From Catalinimonas alkaloidigena (lineage in GTDB: Bacteria > Bacteroidota > Bacteroidia > Cytophagales > Flexibacteraceae), in contig NZ_FNFO01000005.1 of the NCBI RefSeq assembly GCF_900100765.1, positions 62,001 to 126,000 on the forward strand: a DNA stretch of 64,000 nt, read 5' to 3'. Shown here piece after piece: positions 30,016-63,209 of this stretch. A program made the position numbers and the translations under genes. How positions within the stretch are numbered: position 1 is the first letter of the stretch; each line of letters opens with the position of its first letter. A model generated the notes under the pieces. That model did not search any database. It was not told where the DNA came from and saw nothing but the letters and a program-made list of their open reading frames with translations.

Positions 30016-30242
30016 CGGTATTCTGAAACGCTCAAACCAAAGGCAAACTACGGGAAAAGCATGAGAATCAGGAGGATGGGCTAGCCTCCTCCCCGCACTG
30101 GCGGCAGCAAAAAATCTCACCCTTACAAATGCAACCGATTGCATTACTTTCCTTCTTTTCTTACTTTGCTTCGGGTCGCACCGAACTCCCGTTGAGACAC
30201 GAAAGCGACCAATATTTTTTTTACACCCTACATTTTCACCTC

Positions 30243-32669
30243 ATGCAACACATTGCCTCCAAAGTGCTGGGCGCAGCATTGGTCTTTGGCTTTCCGTTTC
30301 TCGGATGGGCGCAGGGTCCGCCGATCACCGTTCAGGCCGAATCGGGCACCCTGGGAGCCGATTTCGCCACCCTGACCGAAGCGAGCGTCTCGTACATCAC
30401 TTCACAAACCGATTTTATCAACACAACCAATCCCGGCAGCGATGCTCGCGTGGTTACCTATTCGGTAACGTTTCCCAGCGCCGGTTCGTACGCCCTCTAC
30501 GCACGCGTGCGTGTGGGCCCCGGTGCGGGCAACGACGATAGCTTCTTTTACGGCAACGGGTTCGGCACCCACCCCTCGACCGACGACAATGGCTGGATTA
30601 CGGCTAACCAACTGGGTTCGGTCGGCTATACCGATGCCGACGCGGTGGTCGGTGCGGGCGGCAACGCGATGACGGGCGTCTGGAAATGGATCAAGCTGTC
30701 GGACTTCAACGGCGGCGAGGCCCCGCCTGCCTTTACCGTACCGGAAGGAGCCCTGACCCAGACGTTCCAGATCGGAGGACGGGAAGATGGCCTGGACTTC
30801 GATCAGTTCGCGTTTGCGCCGGTGGGCGTTTATTACACCGTCGCCAACCTCGATAGCGGGCAGGCCGGAACGTATTACCCGCCGCTGGGCCCGAACGAGC
30901 CCCGGCTGGTGGAAGCGGAACGGGGTGACCTGATTCTGGAGACCGATACCCCCGTTTTTGCCATCGCCACCGAAGGCGATCTCCAGTACGTCCGGGTGGT
31001 TGAAGATTTTGCCGCCACGCAGGCGCCCGGCGACTCGCTGCACGTCATCACCTACGAGGTGAATTTTCCCAATGCGGGAACCTACGATCTGTACGCGCGC
31101 ATCCGGGTCGGTGCCGGTAACTTCAATGACGACAGTTTTTACTACGGCAACGGATTCGGGGCGAAATCGCCTACGGACGAAAATGATTGGATCACCGTCA
31201 ACGGCCTGGGGGCGGCTGGATACGCCGACGCGACGGATGTGGTGGCCGGGGGCGGCTCTGACGGCACTGACGTATGGAAGTGGATCAACCTTTCGGAGTT
31301 TGCCGGACAAGGGGAAACGCCCATTACGTTTACCGTGACGGAAGAGGCGCTGGTGCAAACGTTTCAACTCGGAGGACGGGAAAACGGACTCGATTTCGAC
31401 AAGCTGGCCTTCGGGCCGGATACTGTCTATTACACGGTAGCCAACCTCGACAACGGCGAAGCGGGTTCGGTCACCCCACCCCCGCCGCCCTTCACGCCAA
31501 CGGGGCCGCCCATTGCCCAGGGCAAAAGCAAATTTCTGGGGAACGTCTACAGCGCCTCCCAGCGGCCTTACTTCGAAAATTACTGGAACCAGATTACGCC
31601 CGAAAACGCCGGCAAATGGGGCAGTGTGGAACGCATACGCGACAACATGAACTGGACCGAGCTCGATTCGGCCTACGCCCTGGCGAAAAACAACGGCTTT
31701 CCGTTTCACTTCCACGTGCTGATCTGGGGGTCGCAACAACCCAACTGGATCGACACGCTCGCGCCCGCCACGCAACTCGAAGAGATTGAGGAATGGATGT
31801 CGCTGGTAGCCGAGCGCTATCCGGACATCGAATTTGTGGAAGTCGTGAACGAGCCCCTCCACCAACCACCGAACCAGCCGGGCAACGGCCGGGGAAATTA
31901 CCTTGAAGCGCTGGGCGGCGACGGCGTCACGGGCTGGGACTGGATCATCAACTCGTTCCGCATGGCGCGGGAATACTTCCCGAATTCGCAACTGATGATC
32001 AACGATTACAGCATCATCAACGACGGGAACGCCACCCGGCGGTACCTGGAAATCGTCCGTCTGTTGCAGGAAGAATCGCTCATCGACATCATCGGCGTCC
32101 AGGGACACGCATTTTCGACCACCGGCCCGGAGGCCACGTTCAAGACCAACCTCGATTCGCTGGCGAGCACCGGTCTGCCCCTTCAGGTCACCGAACTCGA
32201 CATCGACGGCCCTACCGACGCACAGCAGTTGGCGGAATACCAACGCATTTTTCCGGTATTGTGGGAACATCCGGCCATGATGGGCATCACCTTATGGGGC
32301 TGGAAGCCCGGCCAGTGGCGCACGGCCCAGGGGGCGTTTCTGGCCCAGGAAAACGGCGCGGAGCGACCGGCGCTGGTCTGGTTGCGCGAGTACGTTTCCG
32401 GCCTACCGACGGCGCTCGACGAAAACCAGTTGATGCGTGCTTCGTGGCGGCTTTACCCGAACCCGTCCGTGGCCGGTCAGTTTACCGTAATGCGCGAGGG
32501 CGAGTCGCCCGCCACGCTTCAAATTCTGAACACGCAGGGACAGCTTCTGCAACAGCAAACCCTACACCGCTCGCTGGAAACTGTGCAGCACACGCTAACG
32601 CCAGGCCTTTATTTTGTGCGCGTGTCCGGCGCGCAGGGCAGCACGACCCGCAAGCTTCTGGTGCAATAA
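30243..32669 (+). CDS. T9SS-secreted endo-1,4-beta-xylanase, GH10
   Basis: 808 residues from the ATG at 30243, followed by a signal peptide (VLGAALVFGFPFLGWAQ). Two N-terminal beta-rich modules of about 190 residues each (about 23-205 and 212-400) share VTYSVTFP/VITYEVNFP, YGNGFG and VANLDxG(Q/E)AG and resemble carbohydrate-binding modules. The GH10 barrel follows (about 420-720): ENAGKWGSVERIRDNMNW, FHFHVLIWGSQQPNW, the acid/base Glu in FVEVVNEPLH (residue 537) and the nucleophile Glu in QVTELDIDG (651). The 114-residue spacing fits GH10. A T9SS type A tail ends the protein (LYPNPSVAGQFTV ... PGLYFVRV). It cleaves xylan chains outside the cell. A terminator follows at 32693. Confidence 0.92.
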   Translation: MQHIASKVLGAALVFGFPFLGWAQGPPITVQAESGTLGADFATLTEASVSYITSQTDFINTTNPGSDARVVTYSVTFPSAGSYALYARVRVGPGAGNDDSFFYGNGFGTHPSTDDNGWITANQLGSVGYTDADAVVGAGGNAMTGVWKWIKLSDFNGGEAPPAFTVPEGALTQTFQIGGREDGLDFDQFAFAPVGVYYTVANLDSGQAGTYYPPLGPNEPRLVEAERGDLILETDTPVFAIATEGDLQYVRVVEDFAATQAPGDSLHVITYEVNFPNAGTYDLYARIRVGAGNFNDDSFYYGNGFGAKSPTDENDWITVNGLGAAGYADATDVVAGGGSDGTDVWKWINLSEFAGQGETPITFTVTEEALVQTFQLGGRENGLDFDKLAFGPDTVYYTVANLDNGEAGSVTPPPPPFTPTGPPIAQGKSKFLGNVYSASQRPYFENYWNQITPENAGKWGSVERIRDNMNWTELDSAYALAKNNGFPFHFHVLIWGSQQPNWIDTLAPATQLEEIEEWMSLVAERYPDIEFVEVVNEPLHQPPNQPGNGRGNYLEALGGDGVTGWDWIINSFRMAREYFPNSQLMINDYSIINDGNATRRYLEIVRLLQEESLIDIIGVQGHAFSTTGPEATFKTNLDSLASTGLPLQVTELDIDGPTDAQQLAEYQRIFPVLWEHPAMMGITLWGWKPGQWRTAQGAFLAQENGAERPALVWLREYVSGLPTALDENQLMRASWRLYPNPSVAGQFTVMREGESPATLQILNTQGQLLQQQTLHRSLETVQHTLTPGLYFVRVSGAQGSTTRKLLVQ

Positions 32670-38041: not shown

Positions 38042-40756
38042 TTAGCGGATCTCAAACGCGTACGTACCGGACATGAGCTCGTAGACGTGCGCGCCTTCCG
38101 ACGTGCTCAGGAGCCGAATGTTGAGGTTCCCTCTTTGGACCGGCTTGCCGCTTTCGTAGACTTTCTGGTCTTTGCCGACCGGCAGAGTCAGATGGGCGGT
38201 AGCGTTCGGCGGAACGGTCGCGGTGTAGAGGAGGCGTTTCCCCGTCTGTTTCCAGGCCGACCGAATCGTTCCGTACGGCCCGTCGTGCGCCGCCGTGAAG
38301 GCATCCAGGCCCGGCACCACGTGCGGCGTAAGTTGCACACGTTTGAAACCGGGCTGCGCTGGATCGGGATGGATGCCGCCCAGCCCTTTGTAAAGCCACG
38401 CCCCGATTTCCCCGAACATGATGTGGTTCAGCGAGATGTCGTTCGCCGCCTGGATGTCCCAGTTTTCGTACAGGGTGGTAGCGCCGTTCACGATCCACCA
38501 ACCCCACGACGGGTACGTTTCCTGTGCCGCCACCCGGTAGGCCACGTCGGCATAACCGTTTTCGCTGAGGGCGTTGAGAATGGCCTTCGTGCCGAGCAAC
38601 CCCACATCGAGGTGATAGTCATCGGCCGCGACCCGTTCTGCCAGGTTGGCGGCCACTTTGGCCCGCAACTCGTCGGGCACCAGTCCCCAGTATAAGGATA
38701 CGCTTAGCTCGGTCTGCAACCCGCTGCCGTACAGGCCGGTTTCCCGGTCCAGGTACTTGGCGTTGTAGGCAGCTTTGATCTTGGCGGCCAGCGCGGCGTA
38801 GTTCCGGGCGTCGTCGGGGTGCCCCAACAGGTGCGCCGCCTGTGCCAGAATGGTTGCATCCGCAAAGTAATACGCCGAAGAAGTTAACTCGACCGGCGAT
38901 TTCGACTTGACGGGCACCCAGTCGCCCAGCCCCCAGGCGGTCAGGCCCGTGGGGCTGAGGTCGGTGATGTGGTCGACGTACCGCCGCATGTTGTCGTAAC
39001 AGGCAGCCAGCAGCGTGGTGTCGCCGTAAAACAGGTAGATGTTCCAGGGAATGATGGCGATGGTGCTGGTCCAGTCGGGCCCGTTGCCCCACTCGTAGCC
39101 CCAGCCGTCGGTCGGAATGATGGAGGGCAACACGCCGTTCGGCTGTTGTTCGTCGCGGTGGTCGGCCAGCCATTTCTCGTAGATCGTGATGCCATCGAAG
39201 CTGTACAGCCCCGTTTCGCTGGCGATGTGCGCGTCGCCCGTCCAGCCGTTTTTCTCCCGTTGCGGGCAATCGGTCGGGTACCCGAACAGGTTGGCGAGGT
39301 ACGAGTGGTTCGTGGCCGCCCAGATCTGGTCGAGCGTCGGGTTAGAAGATGAGATTTCGCCGACGGGCGGCACATCGCTGTGCATGAAGTAGCCCGTCAG
39401 ACTTTCCTGCGTCAGGCGGACGGGGCGGTTGCTGGTCACCTCCACGTACTGAAAGCCTTTGTAGTTGAAGCGCGGCATAAACGTCTCCTCGCCCTTCCCG
39501 CTCAGGATGAAAATGTCGGTTTGGAACGGATCGCTCTCGTCGGTTGGGCGGTAATGAACATCGATGTTGGAGAGGTCGACGTGGCCGTTGGGATACACCC
39601 GCTCGCCGTGTTTCAGGCGCAGTACCGTCCCTGCCTCCCCCCGCGCCCGCAGTTGACTCACGCCCGAAATGTTCCGGCCGAGGTCGAACACGTAGGTCGT
39701 ATCGTTCAGGCGCTCAATGCGCTGCGTCGGCACCGTCTCTACGTTGCGAATGGGGTGCAATGCCTGGGCCACGATGTTTGGGGAAGGTGCACTGCGTAGC
39801 ATCACGTCGTGCCAGGCCGTATCGACAAACGCGGCGGTGTTCCAGCCGGGTTGTTCGCGTCGGGCGTCGTAGTGTTCGGCCGTATAAATGCTGTTGAAAA
39901 TCACCGGGCTGAGGTGCGTTTTCCAGTCTTTTCCGGACGAAATCGTTTCAACCGAACCGTCCTCGTAGGTAATGCGCAGGTCCAGGCAAAAGGTGGGGCG
40001 GTTCCGCCAGGGCGCTTTGTCGAAATACCAGACGGCCGTCGACTGGTGGTTGTACCAGCCGTTGCCCAACAGCACCCCGATGGCGTTATCGCCACGTTGC
40101 AGTTGCGCCGTGACGTCGTGCGTCACGTAAAGGGTCCGCCGGTCGAAGCGGGTGTACATCGGGTCGAGCCGGTGGTTCCCGATGGGCTGTCCGTTGATTG
40201 ACAGTTCGAACAAGCCTGCCGCGGCGATGTAGGCCCGTGCCTGTTTGATCTTTTTAGACACCCGAAATACCTTCCGGAAATAGGGTGCAGGTTTGAGGTT
40301 CGGGTCCTGGTTGTCGCTGATCCACGCGCCCTGCCAATTTGCTTGTGCCATCATCCCCATCTCGAAACGAGCCGCGCCCGCCGGCGTTTTGCGGGTTCTG
40401 TCCTGATCCCAGATCGTTACCTGCCAGTAGTACCGGGTGAACGGCTGCAACGGCTTTCCCGCGTAGCGCACCAGTTGTTGATTCGTCGTCTGCTTGCCTG
40501 AATCCCACACATCGCCCCGCCCCTGCATCACCGCCAGCGAATCGGTCCCGACGACCAGTTGATACGCCGTTTGCCGGGCACCCCGCCGGTCGTCCTCCAT
40601 CCGCCACGTGAAGCGTGGCTGTGCCGCGTCGAGTCCTAGAGGATTTTCCAGGTACTCGCACCGGAGTTGTACGGGTTGCGCACAAAGGAGGGTGGAAAAA
40701 AAACAGCTGAAGATCAGAGCAAAAAAACCAAGATACTGTGACAGGAAGGGTTGCAT
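38042..40756 (-). CDS. Secreted alpha-L-rhamnosidase, GH78 family
   Basis: 904 residues with a signal peptide (FFALIFSCFFSTLLCAQ). Fold order is that of Bac_rhamnosid enzymes: an N-terminal fibronectin-like domain (LRCEYLENPLGLDAAQPRFT), two jelly-roll domains (about 165-330: AWISDNQDPNLKPAPYFRK, then RAYIAAAGLFELSINGQPIG), a catalytic (alpha/alpha)6 barrel (about 440-780) with FGYPTDCPQREKNGWTGDAH and ETGLYSFDGITIYEKWLADH, and a C-terminal beta domain (RLLYTATVPPNATAHLTLPV). The CPQREKNGWTGD region carries the acidic residues used in catalysis by this family. It removes terminal rhamnose from plant glycosides or pectin RG-I side chains. It sits convergent with the PepSY gene; the promoter is in the AT-rich region after 40756. 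Confidence 0.9.
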   Translation of the reverse strand: MQPFLSQYLGFFALIFSCFFSTLLCAQPVQLRCEYLENPLGLDAAQPRFTWRMEDDRRGARQTAYQLVVGTDSLAVMQGRGDVWDSGKQTTNQQLVRYAGKPLQPFTRYYWQVTIWDQDRTRKTPAGAARFEMGMMAQANWQGAWISDNQDPNLKPAPYFRKVFRVSKKIKQARAYIAAAGLFELSINGQPIGNHRLDPMYTRFDRRTLYVTHDVTAQLQRGDNAIGVLLGNGWYNHQSTAVWYFDKAPWRNRPTFCLDLRITYEDGSVETISSGKDWKTHLSPVIFNSIYTAEHYDARREQPGWNTAAFVDTAWHDVMLRSAPSPNIVAQALHPIRNVETVPTQRIERLNDTTYVFDLGRNISGVSQLRARGEAGTVLRLKHGERVYPNGHVDLSNIDVHYRPTDESDPFQTDIFILSGKGEETFMPRFNYKGFQYVEVTSNRPVRLTQESLTGYFMHSDVPPVGEISSSNPTLDQIWAATNHSYLANLFGYPTDCPQREKNGWTGDAHIASETGLYSFDGITIYEKWLADHRDEQQPNGVLPSIIPTDGWGYEWGNGPDWTSTIAIIPWNIYLFYGDTTLLAACYDNMRRYVDHITDLSPTGLTAWGLGDWVPVKSKSPVELTSSAYYFADATILAQAAHLLGHPDDARNYAALAAKIKAAYNAKYLDRETGLYGSGLQTELSVSLYWGLVPDELRAKVAANLAERVAADDYHLDVGLLGTKAILNALSENGYADVAYRVAAQETYPSWGWWIVNGATTLYENWDIQAANDISLNHIMFGEIGAWLYKGLGGIHPDPAQPGFKRVQLTPHVVPGLDAFTAAHDGPYGTIRSAWKQTGKRLLYTATVPPNATAHLTLPVGKDQKVYESGKPVQRGNLNIRLLSTSEGAHVYELMSGTYAFEIR

Positions 40757-60196: not shown

Positions 60197-60590
60197 AGTA
60201 ACTTTGCCCGTAAGGCGCAGAAATAGAGGCAAATCCCGGGCGTACCGGGATATTTTTGAGGATGCCGTGCCTCTTACGCGTAGAAAACAGGCTTTATGTT
60301 GGGCGCTCCCGATTGCCAACGATTTTCGGAAAAAGCCTGTTAAAGTACAGTACAAACTGGATTAATATTTTTACTTTTCGGCGATTTTTCGTTTGAAAAC
60401 CTGTTTAGAAATCATTTTTCAAACCTTTGCCCACCCGGGTGCGGATAGACGACGCGTTCTCTAGACAAGATGTCGTGTTTTATCGAAAAGCAAACGTTTC
60501 GTTTTGAACGTTACCGCGATTGACGAATAATACTCCGTGCCGATTTTTCACCTATTGGCAGAAAACCCCTTGACGATTAGCTTAGCCCAC
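60197..60590. other. Intergenic region upstream of the SAP-domain gene
   Basis: 394 bp. The first part holds a terminator hairpin (60233-60257). The rest is A+T-rich with several T-runs and is probably the promoter and leader of the SAP-domain gene. No other gene or clear repeat is seen. Confidence 0.5.
60233..60257 (+). terminator. Terminator after the 2'-5' ligase-like gene
   Basis: 7-bp stem ATCCCGG (60233-60239) with CCGGGAT (60245-60251), 5-nt loop, then ATTTTTG. It is 36 bp past the stop codon. Confidence 0.7.
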
Positions 60591-61169
60591 ATGAGCAGAG
60601 AAAAAATCAAACTAGACTCAGGCATTACGTTAAAAGAATTCAAAAAACACGATTGGCTCAAAACCGATCTGATGTCGTATTGCCGTGATCACCAGTTATC
60701 CGCTTCCGGCTCGAAAGAAGAGTTAGAGCAGCGCATTATCAATCACCTGACGGTGGGCGAACGAAAGGTACGCCGCCGTTCCATGAATACAAAGACACGC
60801 GTGACGCGTCCCAAGCGCGCCCGACAGAAACTGGAGAAGCCGTCGCTCAAGACCGTGATCACGCCCGATTTCCGGGGAAGCCAGGTAAACCGTCAGTTTT
60901 TCCGCTCCATTCTGGGTCCGCAATTCCGGTTTACAACCCGCCTGACGCGCTGGATGCGTGCCAACGTGGGCAAAACGTTCGGCGATGCCATTCAGGAATA
61001 CCAGCGGGAACAGGAAGATCGACAGAAAGGGGTGTATCGTCCGCAGGCAGGTCCGCAGGCACGGTACAACCAGTTTATTCGCGACTACCGGGAAGCGCAC
61101 CCGGAAGCGACTTTCAAAGAGGCCATTGCGGCCTGGCACCGACACAAGCAATCGCAGCAGGTGGCCTAG
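60591..61169 (+). CDS. SAP domain-containing protein (DUF6434-like)
   Basis: 192 residues from the ATG at 60591 (MSREKIKLDSGITLKEFKKH); an upstream ATG or GTG start at 60537 would add 18 residues. A SAP DNA-binding motif occupies about 10-55: FKKHDWLKTDLMSYCRDHQL with SGSKEELEQRIINHL. A basic linker (KVRRRSMNTKTRVTRPKRAR) follows, then a C-terminal domain with DFRGSQVNRQFFRSILGPQF, RFTTRLTRWMRANVGKTFGD and ARYNQFIRDYREAHPEATFK, seen in DUF6434-type proteins. A cytoplasmic nucleic-acid-associated protein by domain; the role is unknown. Confidence 0.8.
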   Translation: MSREKIKLDSGITLKEFKKHDWLKTDLMSYCRDHQLSASGSKEELEQRIINHLTVGERKVRRRSMNTKTRVTRPKRARQKLEKPSLKTVITPDFRGSQVNRQFFRSILGPQFRFTTRLTRWMRANVGKTFGDAIQEYQREQEDRQKGVYRPQAGPQARYNQFIRDYREAHPEATFKEAIAAWHRHKQSQQVA

Positions 61170-61195: not shown

Positions 61196-61229
61196 ATGCC
61201 CTTTGAACCAGACTCAAAGGGCATTTTTT
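61196..61229 (+). terminator. Bidirectional terminator sharing bases with the response-regulator stop
   Basis: Perfect 11-bp stem ATGCCCTTTGA (61196-61206) with TCAAAGGGCAT (61214-61224), 7-nt loop, then TTTTTA. The right arm starts with the reverse complement of the TGA stop codon of the convergent response regulator. Confidence 0.85.
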
Positions 61230-61621
61230 ATGTCGGCCGACAACAGGGCGTGCAACAAATCGCGACTGATGGGTTTCACAATGTAATCGGACACGACGCT
61301 CAGGTGCTTGGCGCGTTCGATATCACTGGCATTAACCGACGAACTCACCATGTAGATCTGGGTCTTCTTGCACAAACGCGGTACCAGTTCGCGGTAGCGT
61401 TCCAGAAACTCCCACCCGTCCATAATCGGCATATTGATGTCTACCAGCATCAGGTCGGGCAACCGGGCCGCCTCGGCCGCCGCCGCTTCCAGTTCCTGGA
61501 TGGCCAGTTCCGCATTCAGAAAGGCCTTTACTTCGCCGGCCAGTTGCGTCCGCTCAATTTCCAGGCGGATGGTAAATTGGTAGATATCGTCGTCGTCCAC
61601 TACCCACACCTTCTCAACCAT
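61214..61621 (-). CDS. Single-domain response regulator
   Basis: 135 residues: only a CheY-like receiver. Acidic pocket DDDDI (9-13), phospho-acceptor Asp 61 in LMLVDINMPIMDGW, Ser/Thr switch at SSSVNA (93-98) and Lys 116 in DYIVKPISR. There is no output domain, so the signal must go on by protein contact or phosphotransfer. The gene follows the sensor histidine kinase on the same strand with 19 bp between them, so it is likely its cognate partner. The last codons lie inside a terminator stem shared with the convergent SAP gene. Confidence 0.93.
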   Translation of the reverse strand: MVEKVWVVDDDDIYQFTIRLEIERTQLAGEVKAFLNAELAIQELEAAAAEAARLPDLMLVDINMPIMDGWEFLERYRELVPRLCKKTQIYMVSSSVNASDIERAKHLSVVSDYIVKPISRDLLHALLSADIKNAL

Positions 61622-61640: not shown

Positions 61641-63209
61641 TTAAAATACGATTTTAAACGTAGTGCCCTCTCCCACACGGCTCTCCACCCCAATCGAGCC
61701 GCCCTGCGATTCGATCTGATTCTTGGTGATGAACAACCCCACTCCGCGGGCATCGGGGTGTCCATGGAACGTTTTGTGCAGTCCGAACAGCTTGGTACCA
61801 TGCCGTTCCAGATCAATGCCAACGCCGTTGTCCTGGCAGGTCAGTACCACGCGTCCGTCTTCGCTGCGGTGGGTCCGGAAACAGACCTGCGCTGTCCGAT
61901 CGGCAGCCCGGTACTTGATGGCATTGGTCAGCAGATTCAGCATGATGCTTTCCAGGTACACTTTCGGGTAAGTGACCGTCGGGCACTCCGTAAAATGGGC
62001 ACACACGCGCGCGCCACTCTCCTGGATCTGCGCCACCAGGCTTTCGTTCAGATGGCACAGCACTTCCTCAAAGCGCAGCTCTTCGCTCACCAGCGTATCG
62101 TCCGTCTGCACGCGCACCACTTCGGTCAGGTCTTTGACGGTTTCGGCGAGCCGCCCCGCCACTTTGCGGAGTTGTTGCAGCAGAATTTCTTTCTCTGCAC
62201 TGTGGGCACTGCGGTCGTACAGTTCCAGAATAGTCGCCAGATTAGTCACCGGCGAGCGCAGGTTGTGGGAAACGATAAACGCAAATTCCTGCAACATCTG
62301 GTTGCGGCCACGCAAGAGGTGCGTGGTCTCTTCCAGCGCCGCCACGTGGGTTTGCAGCTCGTGCTCCAACTGCTTCAGCAAGGTCACGTCGCGCGCCACC
62401 GTCAACACCGCGGGCGCGCCCGCTTCGGACAGCGACAACGGTACTGCCGAGATGACGTAATTGCGGCGGATTCCCCCCTCGCCCGGAATGCCCGACAGGT
62501 AGTCGAACGTACGGGCCTCGCCCGTCGCAATCACCTCCCGCACCTGCTGCACAAAGATTTCGGCCTGTGGCCCTGGTCGGCTCACCTCCTGAAACGTACG
62601 ACCCTCGATCTGGTCAGGCGATATGCCGGCCAGGCGGCGGATCGACTGGTTGATGAACTTGTAGCGCATGTCTTCGTCGAGGTACGCCACAATGTCCGGA
62701 TTGTGCTCGACCAGGGCTTTGAACTGTGCTTCGCTGCGACGCAGCTCCTGGTTGGCTTTTTCCAGCTCGGCCGTGCGTCGTTGCAGTGCCTCCTCCAGTT
62801 CGGCGGGGGTTTTCAGGGCCAGGGCCTGAGGCGCCACCCGGTACATGGCGATGAGCGTGGTCCACGACACCAAGCCGGTGCCCAGCAACAAAAGGGCATT
62901 GAACCGGTAGACCGGCACCCAGAACATGAGCGCGTCCATCAGGTGTGTCGCACCGCAGAACAAAATGAATGCGGTGAACCAGGCAAATATCTTCCGAAAG
63001 GGCAGATCGGGGCGCTTCCGCACCAGATAGAGTAACATGAGCGGAATGGCAAAATACGCGCTCCAGACGGCCAGATTCGCGCCGATGTACAACCACCCAT
63101 GCAGATCGCTCCAGCGACCGCAATGCCACCGAGCCGGAAAATCGGCGGTATCCCACAAATGCGTAAGAAAATGGTGTAGCTGATCCATAACCGGTGAGGT
63201 ACCCGACAA
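61641..63209 (-). CDS. Ethylene-receptor-like PAS histidine kinase
   Basis: 522 residues. Three N-terminal TM helices (about 38-63, 73-95, 101-124). Helix 1 includes SAYFAIPLMLLYLVRKRPDL and helix 2 FILFCGATHLMDAL, the latter matching the Cu(I)/ethylene site of plant ETR1 (C-G-A-T-H; here Cys 85, His 89); Tyr 52, Ile 55, Pro 56 and Ile 82 also match, while the helix-1 Asp of ETR1 is Asn 45 here. A coiled-coil (ELEEALQRRTAELEKANQEL), a PAS domain (about 160-280) and a kinase follow: His 315 in FIVSHNLRSP, N-box TNAIK (Asn 429), DNGVGI (460-465), GVGLFITK (489-496). It likely senses a small molecule at the membrane and phosphorylates the neighbouring receiver. A later start at residue 8 is possible. 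Confidence 0.88.
   Translation of the reverse strand: MSGTSPVMDQLHHFLTHLWDTADFPARWHCGRWSDLHGWLYIGANLAVWSAYFAIPLMLLYLVRKRPDLPFRKIFAWFTAFILFCGATHLMDALMFWVPVYRFNALLLLGTGLVSWTTLIAMYRVAPQALALKTPAELEEALQRRTAELEKANQELRRSEAQFKALVEHNPDIVAYLDEDMRYKFINQSIRRLAGISPDQIEGRTFQEVSRPGPQAEIFVQQVREVIATGEARTFDYLSGIPGEGGIRRNYVISAVPLSLSEAGAPAVLTVARDVTLLKQLEHELQTHVAALEETTHLLRGRNQMLQEFAFIVSHNLRSPVTNLATILELYDRSAHSAEKEILLQQLRKVAGRLAETVKDLTEVVRVQTDDTLVSEELRFEEVLCHLNESLVAQIQESGARVCAHFTECPTVTYPKVYLESIMLNLLTNAIKYRAADRTAQVCFRTHRSEDGRVVLTCQDNGVGIDLERHGTKLFGLHKTFHGHPDARGVGLFITKNQIESQGGSIGVESRVGEGTTFKIVF

Follow-up and report, generated by a model that had tools for sequence, protein, structure and literature searches.

An ETR1-type histidine kinase of Catalinimonas alkaloidigena with Asn and Leu at the positions of the proposed Asp25–Lys91 bridge

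The kinase gene, its partner and its neighbours

In the window, the whole stretch of 64,000 nucleotides analysed here, a sensor histidine kinase is encoded on the reverse strand at positions 61641–63209. The open reading frame and its frame were confirmed and give 522 aa when read from a TTG at 63209, and the coordinates, frame and residue numbers that the first-pass annotation had counted from this codon are exact. Translation more probably begins at the ATG at 63188–63186 (residue 8, giving 515 aa) than at the TTG, since a Met occupies the equivalent position in a related protein, L014. After 19 bases the kinase gene is followed by a second reverse-strand gene (61214–61621), which encodes a 135-aa receiver-only response regulator assigned to Response_reg by Pfam, as had been claimed for the gene directly after the kinase. 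The phosphoacceptor of this receiver would be Asp61, judging by its position in the fold. Lying side by side and with the phosphorylatable residues present, the two genes have the make-up of a two-component system, as far as sequence can tell. A gene at 60537–61169 on the forward strand, convergent with the receiver gene, encodes a 210-aa protein with SAP_new25 and DUF6434 domains.

The kinase begins with an ETR1_N membrane sensor (PF25487; residues 37–132, positions 62814–63101, reverse strand like all its parts), followed by a PAS_4 domain (residues 168–278, 62376–62708), a HisKA-like dimerisation and phosphoacceptor region with His315 in the motif SHNLR (residues 306–368, 62106–62294) and a HATPase_c catalytic domain (residues 419–521, 61647–61955). 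In the Pfam search of the protein, ETR1_N reached 106.5 bits against a cut-off of 27 (E 8.9e-31; 111.3 bits in the whole-genome search) and was the sole family passing E 0.01 on the sensor segment, a result that rules out a chance match or another sensor family for the membrane part. An NCBIfam MASE3-PAS-kinase model, found among the best 25 of 79 matches, spans residues 81–522 with 109 bits against a cut-off of 560. PAS_4 and HATPase_c are above their Pfam cut-offs, whereas HisKA stays below (18.8 versus 26.9 bits); across 28 aligned sequences the residues of the H-box (SHNLR), N-box and G-box vary little or not at all. The HATPase_c domain and these conserved boxes link the ETR1_N sensor to a histidine-kinase core, and the earlier description of an intact PAS domain and kinase core stands.

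An AlphaFold2 model (mean pLDDT 79.5, pTM 0.46) places helices at about residues 36–65, 72–95 and 102–131 (28–57, 64–87 and 94–123 in the model numbering, which is shifted by 8), so that the sensor is predicted to have the three membrane helices of its family, with the Cys and His in helix 2. With regard to other structure and fold resources, a PDB sequence search matched 35 sequences, none of them before residue 142, the best 50 of 452 hits of a BFVD fold search are mostly kinase and PAS proteins that do not inform on the sensor, and PHROGs matches fall in the kinase half, with one beginning at residue 73.

The neighbours of the gene pair comprise the SAP-domain gene, a phosphoesterase-type gene, an exchanger, a methyltransferase, a sugar transferase and a fragment lacking a Pfam match, and by Pfam none of the neighbouring genes examined points to ethylene, another ligand or copper. 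The presence of a xylanase and a rhamnosidase in the window had suggested the sensing of a plant-derived volatile. Both enzymes are real according to a domain search (a GH10 xylanase at 30129–32669 and a GH78 rhamnosidase at 38042–40756), but they lie about 29 kb and 21 kb from the kinase gene, and the sole match to ACC deaminase in the genome scores 25 bits against a cut-off of 392. The idea is thus not supported, and a link with the plant-polymer genes is rejected.

Distribution of the ETR1_N domain

The window genome carries one ETR1_N domain, while a Pfam profile search detected the domain in none of 14 control genomes and in none of 10 further genomes from its family. At E ≤0.001, it was present in 85 of 390 genomes sampled from the order (84 of them above the family cut-off), in 21 of 395 sampled from the phylum (21 over the cut-off), and in 10 of 341 and 16 of 244 from two other classes (8 and 12 over the cut-off, respectively); the window's own domain used as a query found matches in 17 of 395 genomes of the class, and the genome samples of these family, order, class and phylum surveys overlap. 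Among the best 80 of 452 loci from a scan of genome contigs, the domain profile found ETR1_N in four loci (L012, L013, L014 and L022). An ETR1-type kinase is therefore ordinary in Bacteroidota, though patchy; proteins of this kind are known from bacteria and fairly common there, the presence of the domain is in itself not new, and the view that it would be remarkable in a genome of this phylum is not supported.

ETR1_N-type matches were also found on 19 plasmid records. One of these loci, L142 on plasmid p2 of Novosphingobium sp. ES2-1, which is typed as conjugative, has an ETR1_N kinase and a receiver gene near a Cas9 gene.

The domain further occurs on viral records, where three loci were matched in viral contigs by the family alignment and none by patterns of the window's own domain. 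In the Maribacter phage Molly_1, gp065 (L138:3890–4759) is a 289-aa protein with an ETR1_N match of 60.9 bits against the cut-off of 27 and no kinase domain by Pfam; encoded directly upstream of an amidase endolysin, it keeps the copper Cys and His and has Asn at the Asp25 and Asp at the Lys91 position of ETR1. Proteins of this type are also found in Molly_2 to Molly_5 and Colly_1, and the words 'ethylene' and 'sensor' are absent from the main text of the Maribacter phage paper (PMC8776804). Two putatively viral IMG/VR contigs encode stand-alone domains that lack a kinase: a 139-aa protein (L249:3905–4324; contig of 349,660 bases, 121.3 bits) that retains Asp, Lys, Cys, His and the rest of the site and is flanked by DUF72, release-factor-like and DUF1003 genes, and a 140-aa protein (L250:3935–4357; contig of 21,718 bases, 84.4 bits) with Asn at Asp25 and Thr at Lys91. 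These kinase-less proteins may deserve a look of their own.

The sensor site and the covariation of its proposed bridge positions

Aligned with Arabidopsis ETR1, the window protein has Tyr52, Ile55, Pro56, Ile82, Cys85 and His89 at the positions of Tyr32, Ile35, Pro36, Ile62, Cys65 and His69, that is, six of the seven residues that ETR1 needs for ethylene binding, with Cys85 (62955–62957, reverse strand) and His89 (62943–62945, reverse strand) at the Cu(I) ligand positions. The seventh, Asp25, is replaced by Asn45 (63075–63077, reverse strand), and the helix-3 Lys or Arg that would pair with it is absent as well, its column, that of ETR1 Lys91, being occupied by Leu108 (62886–62888, reverse strand), a substitution which the first-pass annotation had missed. 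The ETR1 letters used in this alignment, and part of the seven-residue list, are taken as background; the same register is obtained from the database record of AzoEtr1, the ethylene receptor of Azospirillum brasilense, in which Asp35 and Lys98 anchor the columns. These two residues were aligned with Asp25 and Lys91 by the authors of the AzoEtr1 study (PMC11819568). Both the identification of an ETR1-type sensor and its proposed helix register are thus confirmed, the former by the Pfam match together with the residue alignment.

Natural Asn variants at the Asp25 position are reportedly mentioned in the abstract of Azhar 2023. In the available text of a review, such natural variants at Asp25 are described, a polar bridge between Asp25 and Lys91 is proposed for ETR1, and the change of Asp to Asn is said to leave a functional receptor with an affinity about 100-fold lower (PMC13012798), which supports the earlier remark that changes at this position reduce ethylene binding. 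The AzoEtr1 paper, in the part available, states instead that mutation of D25 abolishes binding in ETR1 (PMC11819568). Given these diverging reports and the natural variants, Asn45 alone would appear neither new nor surely fatal to function. What stands out is its combination with Leu108: the window protein retains the copper site, but the polar bridge has apparently gone altogether.

Since both ligand residues, Cys85 and His89, are kept, copper binding is likely. A rival reading is that the domain reports Cu(I) itself and not ethylene, with only the metal site remaining under selection once the bridge is gone. Such a copper receptor would explain why Cys and His are kept while the Asp25 and Lys91 residues are lost together, and it would fit the report that Cu(I) binding rigidifies ETR1 (in the accessible part of PMC12643061) as well as the four copper P1B-ATPase matches over the cut-off in the genome; yet all 14 control genomes have such matches too (13 of them over the cut-off), no copper gene lies among the neighbours examined, and the ethylene pocket likewise retains its Tyr, Ile, Pro and Ile, so that we hold this reading to be unlikely.

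To place the substitution in its family, 247 loci (up to 30 top-ranking places per search, plus 60 further places from the order-level search) were reduced to 145 distinct domains, of which 142 have letters at both the Asp25 and the Lys91 columns; three were dropped for a gap at Asp25 (L195, L006 and L218), and L248–L250 are outside the 142. Weak or degenerate domains are under-sampled in this set, 11 order-level places with E 2.5e-12 or weaker having been left out; L010, a match below the cut-off, did not reach the domain profile, and the only rows not from the phylum itself are those of 14 plasmid records and one phage record. Asp occurs with Lys or Arg in 114 of the 142 domains, with Leu in 4 and with Gln in 2, while Asn or Ser occurs with Leu in 15 and with Asp in 6, and Asn with Arg in 1. 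In other words, 114 of the 120 Asp domains have Lys/Arg as the partner and 21 of the 22 Asn/Ser domains have Leu or Asp, counts on which a Fisher value ignores relatedness. Four of the proteins with Asn at Asp25 and Asp at Lys91 (L122, L123, L238 and L240), which have open frames of 1234–1567 aa, look as if the acid had moved from helix 1 to helix 3.

The Asp25/Lys91 pair ranks 4 of 4095 by MI-APC over the 145 domains; in an earlier set of 139, where each column had the other as its best partner, it ranked 6 of 4186 by the same measure and 13 of 3274 under a different normalisation. A Pagel-type test preferred dependent over independent change (lnL -46.4 versus -65.2, LR 37.7, 4 df, p 1.3e-7), with one quick tree of 142 rows and a short numerical fit, while the well supported branches alone provide 2 independent pairs with a median p of 0.5, too few for significance; both tree tests use quick trees on fewer than 100 columns with few supported forks. 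On a 136-row tree, all 15 Asn/Ser–Leu sequences fall in one well supported group of 70, together with 51 Asp–Lys/Arg and 4 Asp–Leu sequences, and the Asn/Ser–Asp rows and the single Asn–Arg row lie outside it. On the best tree the Asn/Ser–Leu sequences fail to group as a single clade (5 changes), although the supported branches force only one change. We take these data as good support, short of proof, for the two residues changing together, in keeping with the bridge proposed for ETR1 (PMC13012798).

As to the recurrence of Asn45 in other Bacteroidota, which had been left for checking, Asn or Ser with Leu is found in 14 further distinct sequences, and a private mutation or a sequencing error is thereby ruled out. 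A change common to 15 distinct sequences of one well supported group, the window protein included, looks kept rather than decayed, and this would suit a sensor in which the same Cu(I) site binds a different small hydrophobic gas or alkene, Asn/Ser–Leu having altered its selectivity. The neighbouring genes examined indicate no ligand, however, and we give this alternative a low probability.

The 14 relatives with this combination (L171, L128, L013, L014, L207, L185, L007, L188, L189, L196–L199 and L211) are at most 66% identical to the window domain, L171 being the closest, and share the copper Cys and His except for L199. Ten of them have frames of only 370–394 aa, which would be too short for a PAS domain of the size seen in the window protein beside the sensor and the kinase. 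A receiver gene adjoins 11 of the 14 Asn/Ser–Leu receptors with enough downstream sequence, the window protein included (10 of 13 for the other kinases; one more is cut), and 38 of 94 Asp–Lys/Arg members (3 of the 94 are hybrids that carry the receiver within their own frame; a further 16 are cut). Judging from these genes, the Asn/Ser–Leu proteins look like maintained receptors and not relics. A degenerating receptor that binds no ligand and signals constitutively would be in keeping with the loss of two conserved residues and with the worse losses in related proteins, L199 having neither the Cys nor the Tyr of the site; we nevertheless regard it as very improbable, as the frame is open, the kinase motifs are kept, the regulator is paired, and 21 of the 22 sequences with Asn or Ser retain Cys, His and Tyr. 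The other such relative, L015 (L015:814–2769), is a kinase from a Cytophagales MAG that was matched over query residues 34–522, and its membrane part has neither a match to the ETR1_N profile nor a CGxTH motif.

Proposed mechanism and comparison with known receptors

The most likely reading of the gene pair is that of a two-component system whose ETR1-type sensor would be a copper-dependent receptor for ethylene or a small alkene, the putative ligand, with an affinity lowered by the replacement of the bridge by Asn and Leu; we assign it a probability of roughly 0.55. The three membrane helices would form a dimer in which Cys85 and His89 coordinate Cu(I), and the copper would bind ethylene, a plausible ligand, or another small alkene. 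The signal would then pass via a coiled coil and the PAS domain to the kinase, which would autophosphorylate at His315 and transfer the phosphoryl group to Asp61 of the adjacent receiver, a protein that lacks an output domain and is therefore expected to work through binding to partners. With Asn and Leu in place of the Asp25–Lys91 bridge, a lower affinity is to be expected, and the signal would have to leave the copper site by another route. Of this picture, the analysis shows the identity of the domains, the register of the residues, the pairing of the genes and the paired substitution, while copper, ethylene, the dimer, the phosphotransfer and the lower affinity are inferred.

This two-component reading draws on the ETR1_N, PAS_4 and HATPase_c domains with an adjacent Response_reg protein, on the six retained binding residues, and on AzoEtr1, a receptor of the same layout that is reported to bind ethylene and to signal (PMC11819568). 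It is also favoured by the pairing counts, the MI ranks, the dependent-model test, the retention of Cys, His and Tyr and the adjacency of receiver genes, as well as by the copper ATPase matches, though the controls share these. Against it stand the missing seventh residue, with the reported loss of binding on D25 mutation (PMC11819568), a neighbourhood silent on ethylene, the lack of the domain in the ten genomes of the same family, and a covariation tree that is poorly resolved and on which the Asn/Ser–Leu sequences are not one clade. In the literature searched, no binding data were found for any Bacteroidota member, no title dealt with ethylene receptors of Bacteroidetes/Bacteroidota or with the Asp/Asn/Lys question, and the paired loss of the Lys was not found, although Azhar 2023 and Aman 2025, the original studies of the Asp–Asn change, may already report it.

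The Asp25–Lys91 bridge is a current proposal for how ethylene binding is coupled to ETR1 output, in the available text of two sources (PMC13012798, PMC11819568). A possible, if somewhat doubtful, extension is that a set of Bacteroidota ETR1-type receptors signals from the copper site without the Asp–Lys polar switch proposed for ETR1, the bridge having been replaced as a unit and a second transmission route being used. If true, this could mean a different ligand or working range, with Asn/Ser plus Leu here and plus Asp elsewhere. Natural receptors devoid of both partners support the contact and offer ready-made tests of the part that the bridge plays in binding versus output. The gene itself is ordinary; the paired substitution makes it a testable handle on ETR1-type signalling, and Bacteroidota are added to the bacteria in which ethylene sensing can be tested.

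Among the known systems, Arabidopsis ETR1 shares the CGATHL copper site and the helix register with the window protein, at 37.5% identity over 104 aligned residues with the ETR1 letters used here. SynEtr1 and the other cyanobacterial ETR1-like receptors, reported to have a single N-terminal Cys (PMC6682694, in the part available), resemble the window protein, whose single N-terminal Cys is Cys30, in a likeness by description only; SynEtr1 is also described as sensing light, a feature of that receptor. The closest parallel in layout and size is AzoEtr1 (locus L137), a 525-aa ETR1_N-PAS-kinase protein which is reported to bind ethylene through its first 130 residues and to affect biofilm formation, and beside which a 135-aa receiver-only regulator, AzoRR-etr1, is encoded (PMC11819568). 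The Cys, His, Tyr, Ile, Pro and Ile of the site are identical in both proteins, whereas AzoEtr1 has Asp35 and Lys98 where the window protein has Asn45 and Leu108. The two kinases are 27% identical over 510 columns (E 2e-33) and the alignment of their receivers spans 22 residues only, which suggests that the same sensor sits on different kinase stocks.
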